A stretch of 64,000 nt of DNA from Arthrobacter echini (GTDB lineage: Bacteria; Actinomycetota; Actinomycetes; Actinomycetales; Micrococcaceae), in contig NZ_VSLD01000001.1 in the NCBI RefSeq assembly GCF_008107445.1, positions 620,001 to 684,000 of the forward strand. Direction: 5' to 3'. The notes under the pieces are model-generated. The model was given only the letters and a program-made list of their open reading frames with translations, made no database searches and was not told the origin of the DNA. Position 1 is the stretch's first letter. Each line of letters starts with the position of its first letter. Both the position numbers and the translations under genes were made by a program. Of this stretch, positions 21,231 through 26,637 are shown in pieces.

Positions 21231-22214
21231 CTACCCGGGGAGGTTGGTTAGCCGGGTGATGGGTGGTTTGCCTCCGATGGCGGTGTGGGGCCTGTGGTGA
21301 TTGTATTCGTGGAGCCAGCCCGGTAGGGCGGCTCGTCGGGCTGATTCCGAGTTGTAGTGGCGGGAGAAGGCCCACCCGTCGGCGAGGGTGCGGTGGAAGC
21401 GTTCGATCTTCCCGTTGGTCTGCGGCCGGTACGGGCGGGTCTTCTTGGCCTTGATGCCGAGCTCGGCGCAGGTCTCGCGCCAGAGATGCGATTTGTAGGC
21501 CGACCCGTTGTCGGACAGGACGCGTTGGACGGTGATGCCGCGGGCGGCGAACCAGGACACGGCCCGGTGCAGGACACCGACCGCGGTGGCGGCGGTTTCG
21601 TCGGCGTGGATCTCGGCGTACGCGACGCGGGAGTGATCATCGATGACGGTGTGCACGAACGCGGTCCCCATCAGCGGTCCGCGGTGTTTGCTGCGGGCTT
21701 TATTCGGGGTGCTGGCTCGGTTCTGGTTGCCCTGGTGCTTGCCGACGTACCGCCACCCGCCGCCGTCGGGGATGTTCCCGAGCTTTTTCACATCGACGTG
21801 GATCAGGTCCCCGGGCGCCTCGTGTTCGTACCGGCGGACCGGTTCCCCGGTGCGGACATCGACGTGATGCAACCGGTTGAGCCGGCACCGGGTCAGCACC
21901 GCATGGACCGTGGAGGCCGGCATGCCCACCCGCGCCCCGATCCCGACGGGTCCCAGCCGCTTCTTCCAGCGTAGATGGACGACCTTCCGGACCATGGCGG
22001 GCGGGGTTTTCGAGGGGCTGCGGTACGGGCGTGACGAGCGGTCCTGCATGCCCGCCCGGCCCATGGCCGCGTACCGGTCGGCCCACCGCTTCGCGGTCGG
22101 CCAGGACACGTGGAAGAACACCGCCGCGTGAGCGACGGGCCACCCCTCGTCGACGATCAGCCTCCCGATCCGCAGCCGTTGAACCGGGGTGAGAGCAGCA
22201 TTAGCGTGAAACAC
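21231..22214 (-). CDS. IS481-family transposase
   Basis: 327 residues. The N-terminal helix-turn-helix region (about 8-75) is followed by a DDE integrase core: first Asp in LIHVDVKKLG, then VIDDHSR, second Asp in VLSDNGSAY and Glu in TNGKIERFHRTL. The start is a GTG at 22214 behind GGAGG. It appears intact. Its ribosome-binding site lies in one arm of a long inverted repeat (22213-22275), which probably limits expression from outside promoters. Confidence 0.95.
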   Translation of the reverse strand: MFHANAALTPVQRLRIGRLIVDEGWPVAHAAVFFHVSWPTAKRWADRYAAMGRAGMQDRSSRPYRSPSKTPPAMVRKVVHLRWKKRLGPVGIGARVGMPASTVHAVLTRCRLNRLHHVDVRTGEPVRRYEHEAPGDLIHVDVKKLGNIPDGGGWRYVGKHQGNQNRASTPNKARSKHRGPLMGTAFVHTVIDDHSRVAYAEIHADETAATAVGVLHRAVSWFAARGITVQRVLSDNGSAYKSHLWRETCAELGIKAKKTRPYRPQTNGKIERFHRTLADGWAFSRHYNSESARRAALPGWLHEYNHHRPHTAIGGKPPITRLTNLPG

Positions 22215-23844: not shown

Positions 23845-24036
23845 TCAGTGCCAGAGCTGGTCCGCCCACGCGGCGTCGCGTAGGTAGTCCCGCGCTGCGC
23901 CGATCTCCCAGAGCTCGCCCTGCAGCTCGAGGACGCCGTCGTTCCGCAACAGTTCCACCGTCTCGGACGAACATCCCAGGGCCTCGGAAAGTGCTTTCTC
24001 GCCGAGGGCGAGGACGACCGTGTTCCTGTCGTTCAT
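23845..24036 (-). CDS. small excisionase-like HTH protein, third gene of the SpaB_C mini-locus
   Basis: 63 residues. The pattern LSEALGCSSETVELLRNDGVL followed by LWEIGAARDYL resembles a minimal MerR/excisionase winged helix. The C-terminus ends WADQLWH. The ATG overlaps the stop of the SpaB_C-like gene by 4 nt (ATGA), so the two products are made together. It could be a local regulator or a small partner protein of the enzyme; the sequence does not decide. Confidence 0.65.
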   Translation of the reverse strand: MNDRNTVVLALGEKALSEALGCSSETVELLRNDGVLELQGELWEIGAARDYLRDAAWADQLWH

Positions 24037-25043
24037 CGGTCAGCCCCTCGGCCGGTAGTGTCGGAAGAGCGACGCCGGGTGCCCGCCGGACCGCGACTCA
24101 ATGTGACCTGCGGCACCCAGGATCGCGCGTAGAGGCCGAGAGGCGCCTCCTCGGCGGCGCTGATACCCAGTCGGTTCAACATCATGTGGGCCTGGTAGAC
24201 GGTCAGGTGGAGCGCACTACGGCTGACGCACACCCGATTCGCACGGTGCAGGTACGAGTCGAGCGCCTGGCACCAACGACGCCGCCATCTCTGCACCGCG
24301 AGCTCGGACGCTTCAGCATCCATGAGGGAATGGAAGCCCGCAGCTTTCGTGGACACATGCGCGGTCATCGCCGTGCGAACATCTGCGGCGTGCACTCCTG
24401 CGTCGGCGGTACACGTCCTCAAGTGGCTGTCCCAGTAGTGCCCCCAGGAGATACGGCGGTCGATCCAGCGCTCCGAATGCGGTCCGGATGTCATACTCTG
24501 AGCGGCATCGAACAGGAGTATGGCGGCAAAGGCAGATCGGCTCTGCGGACGGGGGAATCTCTGCGCGGCCCAGATGGCGAGTTCCGAGCCGAGCTCGAAG
24601 ACCTCCTCGGCAAGGCCCAGACCCTCGACGCCGCCATATCTCACCAGGTTCGCCTCCAGTTGGGGATCGGCCATGTGCTGGCCTCCCGCGTAGTAGGTGT
24701 CGCTTGCCGGCGGCGTGAAGTACTGCCGGGCACTGAGGAGAGAGCTGGCCGAGCCGGGATCCGTCCGATGTTCCTGCTGGAAGCTCCGAAGCCGAGCGAG
24801 AACACGCGGATGTGCCTGGACGCTGAGGACGACGTCGCTGCCGGCGCCGGATGCCGTGCTCCTGGAGCGGGTGAAATACCACCGTTTCGCTCCGTACTTC
24901 TGTGCCTGCGCCACCAGCGGGGTAATCAGCTCTTCAATGATGCCGTCCGCTGCATCGAAGTCACCCGCCGAGAGGGACACATGCCACCACTGAGAGCTGA
25001 CGACCGTCCGAGAGGCGGTTCGGGCGGCTATCACCTGGCTCAT
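24033..25043 (-). CDS. stand-alone lantibiotic-dehydratase C-terminal (SpaB_C/thiopeptide-type) protein
   Basis: 336 residues matching, as far as I can read it, the 'thiopeptide-type bacteriocin biosynthesis' domain that in LanB enzymes eliminates glutamate from glutamylated Ser/Thr, and in TbtD-like enzymes forms the pyridine ring. Landmarks in order: WWHVSLSAGDFDAAD (19-33), KRWYFTR (53-59), LVRYGGVEGLGLAEEVFELGSE (133-154), and HMMLNRLGI (286-294), where H286 corresponds to the catalytic His near the NisB C-terminus. The usual HLRLR motif is replaced by DVVLSV (70-75). No glutamylation domain is nearby. Start ATG 25043 follows GAAGGA. A 57-residue peptide gene lies 82 nt upstream and a small HTH gene overlaps downstream. 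Confidence 0.78.
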   Translation of the reverse strand: MSQVIAARTASRTVVSSQWWHVSLSAGDFDAADGIIEELITPLVAQAQKYGAKRWYFTRSRSTASGAGSDVVLSVQAHPRVLARLRSFQQEHRTDPGSASSLLSARQYFTPPASDTYYAGGQHMADPQLEANLVRYGGVEGLGLAEEVFELGSELAIWAAQRFPRPQSRSAFAAILLFDAAQSMTSGPHSERWIDRRISWGHYWDSHLRTCTADAGVHAADVRTAMTAHVSTKAAGFHSLMDAEASELAVQRWRRRWCQALDSYLHRANRVCVSRSALHLTVYQAHMMLNRLGISAAEEAPLGLYARSWVPQVTLSRGPAGTRRRSSDTTGRGADR

Positions 25044-25125
25044 GGCTGCATCCTTCACGGGCTCTGATTACTCCCGCTGGGGCGGGCTCTGGGCGGGAGA
25101 CCGGGCTCTGTGCCGGCGCTCCCTC

Positions 25126-25299
25126 TTACTTGGGCCAGTCCCAACTGCTGACCGACCCGCTGTCGGAAACACCCTTGCCGCCCAACACGGAGAGGCTCTC
25201 GAGCCGGTGTTCACGTGTAGAGCCGAAGGATCCTCCTACCAGCACCACAGCTCCCGCCACGATCAACAGGCCCGCAGTTGCAGCGAGTACCTTCTTCAT
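25126..25299 (-). CDS. small secreted peptide, possible RiPP precursor
   Basis: 57 residues from ATG 25299, which follows AAGGAGCC with good spacing. Residues 1-27 (MKKVLAATAGLLIVAGAVV...) form a signal peptide or membrane anchor. The remainder is short and polar and ends LGGKGVSDSGSVSSWDWPK, with five Ser and two Trp in the last 16 positions after a Gly-Gly. It is the first gene of the leftward unit that contains the SpaB_C-like enzyme. It may be the enzyme's substrate or a secreted signal; classical RiPP leaders do not start with such a hydrophobic stretch, so this is uncertain. Confidence 0.6.
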   Translation of the reverse strand: MKKVLAATAGLLIVAGAVVLVGGSFGSTREHRLESLSVLGGKGVSDSGSVSSWDWPK

Positions 25300-25366
25300 G
25301 ACGGCTCCTTCCATCTCTGGCGTCCGGGAGGCTCGAGCTGTGGGTAGCGCGTTTCCGCGATACCCC

Positions 25367-25391
25367 GATCCACCAGGAATCCTGGTGGATC
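25367..25391. promoter_or_regulatory. 25-bp palindrome in the peptide/regulator divergent region
   Basis: GATCCACCAGGA, one central A, then TCCTGGTGGATC: perfect 12-bp arms. It lies 68 bp upstream of the small peptide start and 236 bp upstream of the TrmB/LuxR regulator. It fits an operator for that regulator or another dimeric protein. There is no T-run, so a terminator is less likely. Confidence 0.65.
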
Positions 25392-25449
25392 ACCGGTGAC
25401 CGGCTCCACAAGGATGTCGGTCGGCAGCAGCCGGTGTCCAGCAATAGAA

Positions 25450-25467
25450 ATGTCCCTTTGCGGACAT
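25450..25467. promoter_or_regulatory. second inverted repeat in the divergent region
   Basis: ATGTCC-N6-GGACAT, perfect 6-bp arms, 59 bp beyond the larger palindrome. The 327-bp gap between 25299 and 25627 contains these two repeats and no gene that I can see. Its lower GC content fits a promoter region. Confidence 0.45.
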
Positions 25468-25626
25468 GACGCCAAATGGACCCTGAGGCGTGATGGACAG
25501 GCATTGCCAACTGATTCTCATGCTTCAGAACACGGAGAACACAGCCCTTGACGAGCAATTCTGCGCGTCGCATTGCCACCGGCACTGTTCTGTCATTAAC
25601 TGGACAGGCCCGGGAAATACACTGCC

Positions 25627-26637
25627 ATGGAAGCCGCTGCCACATCGGTGACGAGAACAGGACCGCCCATGCTGGACGCGATGTCGCTGGAGGTCTACCG
25701 CTATGCCGTGGGCCATCCCGGCTGGACCCGCTCGGATGCGTCCGAGGCTTTGGGCCTGACGCTGCGTCGCATCGATGACGCGATCGGCGAGCTTTCGGCT
25801 CGCAAGCTGCTCAGCGCCCGGGCCGGCGACACGGGCGGACTCATCGCTGTGTCCCCGGATGTTGCCCTCGCCGATCTGGTCGATGCGGACGAACGCGCCC
25901 TGCAGGAGCTCAAGACCCGCATCAGCGGGCAGCGGCGGGAGATGTCGAGCCTGCTCCCCTCCTTCCTCGAGGCTCGCAAGAGCGTCCTCGCGAGCGCCTC
26001 GGTCGAGACCCTCGAGGACCCCCATCTCATCCATCGGGTCCTGATCGACTACGGCCGGGACGTCACGGAGAAGGTCTACATCGCGCAACCCGGCCAGGGA
26101 TCGACGGCGGACGTCCACGAGGAGAGCGTGCGCAAGGATCTCGAGCTCCTGGAGAACGGGGTACGGCGCAGGACTCTCTATGACACGAGTACGCGCGACC
26201 ATGTCCCCACGCGTAAAGCCGTCGAGGCGATCGCGGCCGGAGGTGGTGAGTTCGGCGTCCTCCCGTTCATCCCCCTGCGCATCCTCATCTTCGACGAGAA
26301 ACTGGCCCTGATCGGCCGGCAACAGACCCGCACCGACAAAGCGGCCCTGGTGGTGCGGGATCCCAGTCTGATCACCATCTTCATCCATCTCTTCGAGGTT
26401 GCGTGGGAGCTCAGTGAGTCGTTCCTCGCTCCGGAGCGGGTCGAGTCGCCCCTGAACAGCCTGCAGCGCTCCATCCTCCAGGGGCTGTCCAACGGCCTGT
26501 CCGACGAGTCGATTGCGCGCCGCCTGGACATCAATGTGAGGACCTGTCGGCGTCACATCGCCTTCATGCTCGAGACGCTCGGTGCGGACAGTCGTTTCCA
26601 GGCCGGACTCAGGGCGAGGGAAGCCGGATGGGTCTGA
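25627..26637 (+). CDS. TrmB-type/LuxR-type dual HTH regulator
   Basis: 336 residues. The N-terminus (about 15-75; YAVGHPGWTRSDASEALGLTLRRIDDAIGELSARKLL) is a TrmB-like winged helix. The middle (about 95-265) resembles a PLD-like sensor region. The C-terminus (about 275-336; LNSLQRSILQGLSNGLSDESIARRLDINVRTCRRHI) is a LuxR-type HTH. This layout is frequent next to actinobacterial peptide-biosynthesis loci. The ATG at 25627 has only a weak Shine-Dalgarno; ATGs at 25669 and 25681 are alternatives. It is divergent from the peptide/SpaB_C unit and probably controls it. Confidence 0.82.
   Translation: MEAAATSVTRTGPPMLDAMSLEVYRYAVGHPGWTRSDASEALGLTLRRIDDAIGELSARKLLSARAGDTGGLIAVSPDVALADLVDADERALQELKTRISGQRREMSSLLPSFLEARKSVLASASVETLEDPHLIHRVLIDYGRDVTEKVYIAQPGQGSTADVHEESVRKDLELLENGVRRRTLYDTSTRDHVPTRKAVEAIAAGGGEFGVLPFIPLRILIFDEKLALIGRQQTRTDKAALVVRDPSLITIFIHLFEVAWELSESFLAPERVESPLNSLQRSILQGLSNGLSDESIARRLDINVRTCRRHIAFMLETLGADSRFQAGLRAREAGWV

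Follow-up and report, generated by a model that had tools for sequence, protein, structure and literature searches.

A W-[DE]-W peptide cassette of Arthrobacter with a lone SpaB_C-type partner, tentatively read as a regulator-controlled signal circuit

A total of four linked genes were analysed in a stretch of 64,000 nucleotides (nt) of Arthrobacter echini (contig NZ_VSLD01000001.1, positions 620,001 to 684,000), hereafter the window, which is part of a 3.16-Mb genome. They are tentatively interpreted, with a little less than even credence, as a vertically inherited cassette of Arthrobacter and close relatives, in which a short W-[DE]-W peptide and a lone SpaB_C-type partner would belong to a signal circuit controlled by the adjacent regulator. 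The peptide gene, the gene of the SpaB_C protein (24033–25043 with its stop codon) and that of a 63-residue protein form a minus-strand unit, from which the regulator gene is divergent. The coordinates and strands that a sequence-only reading of the window had given for the four genes were all verified, and the features of the locus are the following:

23845–24036, minus strand: small protein of 63 residues, whose start overlaps the enzyme stop (ATGA); tail conserved in 52 of 62 loci
24036–25043, with the stop at 24033–24035, minus strand: lone SpaB_C/Lant_dehydr_C-fold protein of 336 residues (PF14028 match)
25073–25086, minus strand: stem-loop CCCGCCCCAGCGGG between the peptide and enzyme genes, unchanged in all 15 aligned sequences
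25126–25299, minus strand: putative peptide precursor of 57 residues (MKK, a hydrophobic signal-like segment, a propeptide and C-terminal SSWDWPK); conserved WxW reading frame
25129–25146, minus strand: SWDWPK core (codons 52–57), unchanged in all 11 two-copy relatives
25434–25471, no strand assigned: block with GGACA/TGTCC half-sites 5′ of the peptide gene, conserved among relatives
25591–25606, no strand assigned: box TGTCATTAACTGGACA just 5′ of the regulator start, a candidate operator or promoter element, with the same sequence in the window and in 11 of 11 relatives
25627–26637, plus strand: TrmB-like/LuxR (GerE) regulator of 336 residues, identified by profile matches; divergent and adjacent in 50 of 62 loci

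The survey of the window enzyme family covered 62 related loci, 53 of them main and nine paralogous. The regulator, the WxW peptide, the enzyme and the tailed small protein were found together in 49 of the 62, and the sequence-only reading, which depended on the conservation of peptide and regulator beside the enzyme, thus withstood the survey. Three other loci (L034, L040 and L057) had the peptide, the enzyme and the tail with no adjacent regulator, and in L014 the tail was absent, its second peptide copy and the HxxxNR motif of its enzyme also looking degraded. The nine paralogous loci had neither regulator, peptide nor tailed protein. In a sample of the order comprising 396 genomes per search, the nine in-family genomes with a regulator match (1e-20) were the same nine that matched the enzyme profile (1e-6). 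Moreover, in the fetched flanks of the 53 main loci, an aminotransferase match appeared in 50, ald in 41 and both in 38, while the nine paralogues had neither; this conserved neighbourhood is what vertical inheritance would give. The nearest named relative at the locus was an uncultured Arthrobacter (L002), with 92% enzyme identity.

A WxW-bearing open reading frame (ORF) was found 5′ of the enzyme gene in 53 of the 62 loci, ending 76–121 nt before the enzyme start. The motif W[DE]W lay within its last seven residues in 50 of the 53 main loci and in none of the nine paralogous ones. As controls, 10,600 shuffled upstream regions gave no such case, and 5,034 random places in these loci gave five. 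The main loci without it were L014 (second copy degenerate), L023 (ending in PQQQVL) and L049 (WGW). Among the C-terminal forms, SWDWPK was the most frequent (23), followed by SWEWF (8), AWDW (6), SWDWF (5), NWEWPK (3), VWDWI (3), IWDWKN (1) and IWDW (1), and VWDWPQ was another form found among the loci. The residue before WxW was S, N, V, A or I, D and E were exchanged between the two Trp residues, and the stretch between WxW and the stop was PK, F, I, KN, PQQQVL or nothing. The window peptide has no Cys, and no Ser or Thr is conserved in the core across loci. The earlier description of a Ser/Trp-rich peptide of 57 residues therefore holds for its presence and for the conserved WxW, but not for Ser, which makes Ser-directed dehydration unlikely. 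No relevant family match was obtained for this peptide in Pfam and NCBIfam profile searches, and the DNA pattern of WDWPK, TGGGANTGGCCNAAR, occurs a single time in the genome. With the L005 peptide as the query, 18 database proteins were found, of which the named ones were all hypothetical proteins of Arthrobacter. Furthermore, in an additional set of 20 loci, which is not independent of the 62 (eleven records are apparently shared), all 14 loci with the regulator had W[DE]W and none of the six without it did.

The peptide genes followed three architectures. In the first, a signal-peptide-like N-terminus is followed by one copy of the core (the window and L002–L004) or two (e.g. L005). The second comprises tandem arrays of in-frame 33-nt units, with four copies in L073, where the units differ synonymously, and six in L075; other arrays had three NWEWPK copies (L024 and L038) or three ASWDWPK copies with no signal (L016). 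The third, restricted to one clade, consists of signal-less mini-genes of 7–17 codons, encoding MKKxTAPVSIKSWEWF and similar peptides, MTKVWDWI or MKSWDWF. The last of these, seven codons after a purine-rich stretch resembling a ribosome-binding site, was present in five of the 62 loci and in four added ones (L130, L132, L138 and L139), a longer in-frame start being also possible in L132 and L139. The signal-like N-termini, with AxA-like sites, were judged by eye and were missing in the mini-gene clade and in L016. Distant loci had related but different peptides (IWAWPESWP in L077 and IYDWP in L071). The range from six tandem copies down to a seven-codon gene is a natural series that delimits the minimal unit with no need for mutagenesis, and genes this small are easily overlooked in annotation. 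In the enzyme tree, from which L063 was excluded for its interrupted frame, the mini-gene loci formed one clade (96/92), and, with split-cluster proteins (described below) on the far side, this clade and the paralogues fell inside the signal-bearing loci, with a joining branch of 86/94 that was not starred.

Selection was evaluated on eleven two-copy peptides of 46 codons, for which the ratio of non-synonymous to synonymous rates (dN/dS) was 0.20 overall. Both SWDWPK cores had zero amino-acid changes, with a proportion of synonymous differences (pS) of 0.386, while the spacer had a proportion of non-synonymous differences (pN) of 0.350. The signal-like N-termini of these 11 relatives were also under purifying selection (pN of 0.076 vs. 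pS of 0.295). Since the cores stayed unchanged while the spacer varied, the W[DE]W peptide is the unit of selection, and this result, together with the D/E exchange and the tandem copies, speaks for more than a simple Trp-codon attenuator. That the peptide gene is real and under selection is near certain.

Regarding the enzyme, the 336-residue protein was the only PF14028 match in its genome, scoring 59.8 bits against a curated cut-off of 24.4, and structural comparison revealed the SpaB_C fold, with a match across the whole domain. The structures matched included TbtD with its leader peptide and NisB with a leader peptide or a substrate analogue. Both results bear out the lone SpaB_C-type domain proposed in the sequence-only reading, while the profile check it had suggested succeeded for PF14028 but not for TIGR03891 (thiopep_ocin), whose match was partial (positions 94–253 of 263) and below the cut-off (41.1 vs. 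48.45 bits). The positions of the NisB elimination site were transferred to the window enzyme through the split-cluster homologue of L072, so that R784, R786, E823, R826 and H961 correspond to V72, S74, N132, R135 and H286, two of the five being kept. R784 and E823 are presumably elimination-site residues of NisB. The R784/R786 pair is RxR in five of five split-cluster proteins and variable across the window family, the R786 position of the NisB/MibB elimination domain being Ser in the window, and the position of E823 is E in all five split-cluster proteins, as opposed to N132. At the R826 position, the five split-cluster proteins carry K and the window family carries R, K or T, while the residue equivalent to H961 has disappeared from two main loci (L048 and L049) and from most paralogues. 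According to passages of PMC4979651, the NisB variants R786A, R826A and H961A glutamylate without eliminating, which for H961 is also stated in part of PMC4341554, where R784A appears with a mild effect.

A total of 70 enzyme positions were near-invariant, with at most one deviating sequence among the 50 main-family rows, a table from which L063 and the distant L071 and L077 were excluded. Near-invariant polar residues included E130, E150, R162, D179, H207, R254, R256, D262 and R275, of which E130 and R162 occurred in none of the five split-LanB homologues and E150 in one. The enzyme is thus under strong constraint, perhaps for a purpose other than elimination, and, judging from its residues, glutamate elimination is probably not its function. 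The alignment left out L027, L042 and L057, in which the reading frame is broken shortly after the aligned start. A comparable case was seen in Arthrobacter gandavensis SR10 (L063/L097), whose enzyme gene aligns in two pieces with an apparently interrupted frame, the mini-peptide ORF and the regulator being present.

The regulator exceeded the cut-off of the GerE/LuxR profile (28.5 vs. 23.5) and stayed below that of TrmB (17.6 vs. 22.2), a profile result compatible with the divergent dual-domain protein described from the sequence. The two palindromes noted between the divergent genes do exist in the window, the first at 25367–25391 with 12-base arms around one base and the second, a perfect one, at 25390–25399, but they are not conserved: the first was found in none of the intergenic regions of 11 relatives and the second in one, the closest (L002). 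As candidate operators of the regulator they were rejected on this ground. Regulator homologues outside the family were also considered as further carriers of the cassette and discarded, as none of 13 such loci had a SpaB_C match (tblastn, 1e-3, three SpaB_C queries). In L109, a TrmB/LuxR homologue from another family of the order, a divergent signal-like peptide of 46 residues ending in TAGTIIWPGGCPNC was observed 174–314 nt upstream of the aligned start of the regulator homologue, on the opposite strand; regulators of this kind may be linked more widely to small peptides that are exported.

The 63-residue protein had zero Pfam or NCBIfam matches at E ≤ 1, so its label as a helix-turn-helix (HTH) protein is unproven. 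A total of 23 homologues were found, the named ones all from Arthrobacter, one carrying the source name 'DNA-binding protein'. Its tail, ARDYLRDAAWADxLW (window 23848–23895), was near-invariant, and in loci of the L052–L062 type the HTH-like part was lost while the C-terminal RDAAWADxLW was kept. The ORF and its place, as first described, are therefore correct, but the conserved part is this C-terminal tail, possibly a second peptide or a segment for docking.

In the circuit proposed, the product of the peptide gene would be a short W-[DE]-W peptide, which most lineages would release from a secreted and often tandem-repeat precursor and one clade would encode directly as a mini-gene. The lone SpaB_C protein, as a putative relative of the LanB elimination domain that lost part of the elimination site, would be the dedicated cytoplasmic partner of the peptide, binding and most likely modifying its WxW segment. 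The TrmB/LuxR protein would control the unit and probably read the peptide, giving an autoregulated peptide-signal circuit, with the 63-residue protein and its Trp-rich tail as a possible accessory partner. The linkage of the four genes, the conservation of the core while the rest varies and the repeats, as in multi-copy pheromone precursors, support the circuit, as do the place of the mini-gene clade inside the signal-bearing forms and an enzyme with the SpaB_C fold, many near-invariant positions and a changed elimination site. The enzyme–peptide partnership is likely, the chances of a chemical modification of the WxW peptide are about even, and signalling through the regulator is plausible from linkage.

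On the other hand, several points weigh against this circuit. Lacking a signal sequence, the mini-gene clade would depend on a different route for secretion, and no exporter, protease or importer was recognised in family searches of the genes of the unit. The window enzyme retains R135 and H286, the equivalents of NisB R826 and H961; the nine paralogues without an adjacent WxW peptide indicate that the fold is usable without one; and the 13 outside regulator homologues do not stand beside SpaB_C genes by tblastn, which leaves linkage as the ground for peptide sensing. Moreover, the interaction of enzyme and peptide and the modification of residues are indirectly inferred. It is possible, though rather doubtful, that the cassette represents a new ribosomal peptide class, in which a repurposed LanB elimination domain would by itself modify W-(D/E)-W to give a group-wide signal read by the TrmB/LuxR protein, with precursors ranging from the leaderless MKSWDWF to a secreted six-copy form. 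If so, this would be a third, self-sufficient use of the SpaB_C fold, after glutamate elimination and [4+2] cyclisation, and a candidate peptide signal for Arthrobacter.

Alternatively, the SpaB_C protein might be a non-catalytic receptor or chaperone coupling the unmodified WxW peptide to the regulator. This is rather unlikely, although the window differs from NisB at three of the five elimination positions, the remaining two being variable in the family, the fold is known to bind peptides (the TbtD and NisB structures) and the divergent regulator stands next to the unit in 50 of the 62 loci; the many near-invariant polar residues suggest more than loose binding.

It is unlikely that the peptide ORF is a cis-acting leader setting enzyme expression by Trp-codon attenuation or ribosome arrest, with a product that has no role of its own. 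The tiny Trp-rich ORFs, which keep an almost constant 70–125 nt from the enzyme gene on its 5′ side, the hairpins predicted between both genes and the lack of a WxW ORF beside the nine paralogues would all fit such a leader. However, signal-like N-termini under purifying selection, up to six tandem copies, the D/E exchange and the varied residues between WxW and the stop would not. Furthermore, Trp attenuation normally relies on adjacent Trp codons. No terminator was scored in the peptide–enzyme gap of the window, a compensatory change was found in one of 11 predicted hairpin pairs, and the stem-loop, invariant in all 15 sequences, provides no covariation evidence.

A cluster for an antimicrobial ribosomally synthesized and post-translationally modified peptide (a bacteriocin) is very unlikely. 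SpaB_C domains otherwise belong to enzymes of such peptides and a precursor-like small gene comes first in the unit, but no transporter, protease or immunity gene was recognised among the genes of the unit, and bacteriocins typically diversify, unlike this core, which is almost constant across the group and keeps a conserved chromosomal place. Moreover, Arthrobacter sp. APC 3897 (the genome of L040) was among the strains of a BAGEL/antiSMASH study, passages of which name a circular bacteriocin as the candidate and no such locus (PMC10456417).

A glutamylation partner of the enzyme was searched for in several ways. Searches of its own genome with PF04738 and with a divergent split-cluster LanB-N of 845 residues, both without a positive control genome, were empty; these negatives are weak because no control genome gave a match and because PF04738 misses the LanB-N of L124 (at E 0.01). 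At the locus level, tblastn with two LanB-N queries gave no match in the window or in any of the 62 loci, while the positive controls matched (L065, L067, L069, L072, L078, L080, L083 and L121–L124). The absence of a LanB glutamylation domain claimed by the sequence-only reading thus stands, while the distant LanB partner it had entertained is unsupported and was rejected. A lone domain acting as the glutamate-eliminating half of a split LanB is therefore most improbable, despite its SpaB_C fold and the two kept equivalents, given these searches, the changed R784/R786/E823 equivalents and a peptide core with no conserved Ser or Thr.

No described system of this make-up was found in the open-licence papers searched, as the sequence-only reading had supposed, nor did the searches yield a paper dealing with the peptide, the locus or an Arthrobacter SpaB_C standing alone. 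Standalone SpaB_C proteins likewise appear in split class I LanB or thiopeptide-like clusters (L069, L072, L083 and L121–L124), and the regulator of L072 is 39% identical to that of the window. However, these clusters have a LanB-N-like protein (827 and 845 residues in L072 and L124, respectively) and an M50-type protein, and a Ser/Cys-rich precursor-like ORF in six of seven loci, all of which the window family lacks. The closest full cluster was L072, which combines the M50-type protein and a PF04738 protein with SpaB_C, an unassigned small protein, the regulator and precursor-like ORFs rich in Ser and Cys. It is plausible that the regulator and SpaB_C pair was kept from an L072-like cluster, the dehydratase half and precursors being replaced by the WxW peptide. 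Opposite to class I lanthipeptide (LanB) systems, the window has no glutamylation domain, full elimination site or precursor with Ser/Thr and Cys.

Short linear pheromones of Gram-positive bacteria (ComS/XIP and Phr/PapR types) have a small, sometimes signal-bearing precursor, a short core and an adjacent regulator. The cassette differs from them in its TrmB-like/LuxR regulator, which is not of the RRNPP type, and in its up to six in-frame copies, and to our knowledge the SpaB_C partner has no counterpart in those systems. The standalone [4+2] pyridine synthases TbtD, PbtD and TsrL need two Ser-derived dehydroalanines, azoles and partner enzymes, whereas the W[DE]W core has no conserved Ser and no further modification gene was recognised in family searches of the genes of the unit. 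In the account found in part of PMC4979651, the substrate of the thiopeptide [4+2] enzymes is a thiazole-bearing peptide, and the reaction spans two of its dehydrated serines. Microcin C (MccA with MccB) likewise presents a seven-codon structural gene beside a dedicated enzyme, as outlined in a section of PMC6495379, but that enzyme is of an unrelated type and the peptides gain a C-terminal nucleotide; in that account the length is kept and the sequence is not, while in the cassette the core is kept and the length is not. As for Arthrobacter itself, the word TrmB is absent from the main text of a work on the LuxR genes of strain UMCV2 (PMC9659744), and a section of a 2016 review on quorum sensing in Actinobacteria gives bioinformatic evidence only (LuxR-type domains) for this genus (PMC4748050).

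Additional SpaB_C paralogues standing alone and belonging to the mini-gene group, with no adjacent regulator or small protein, were observed in L043–L047, L050, L051, L054, L061, L088–L096, L098–L100, L104 and L107, and PF14028 matches reached five in one genome (G257). A looser WxW scan of further paralogues gave stray matches, the nearest in L088 (WQW, the ORF ending 71 nt before the start), which are taken for chance; none had W[DE]W near the C-terminus. Moreover, a contig titled Vibrio cholerae strain 35D (WNZI01000025.1, L027) carried an Arthrobacter-type locus with the regulator, the peptide, the small protein, ald and an interrupted enzyme frame, and is most likely contaminating or mislabelled. 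Finally, on the side of the downstream neighbours of the unit in the window, a transposase ORF of 327 residues (21231–22214), which we take to be of the IS481 type, lies directly after ald.

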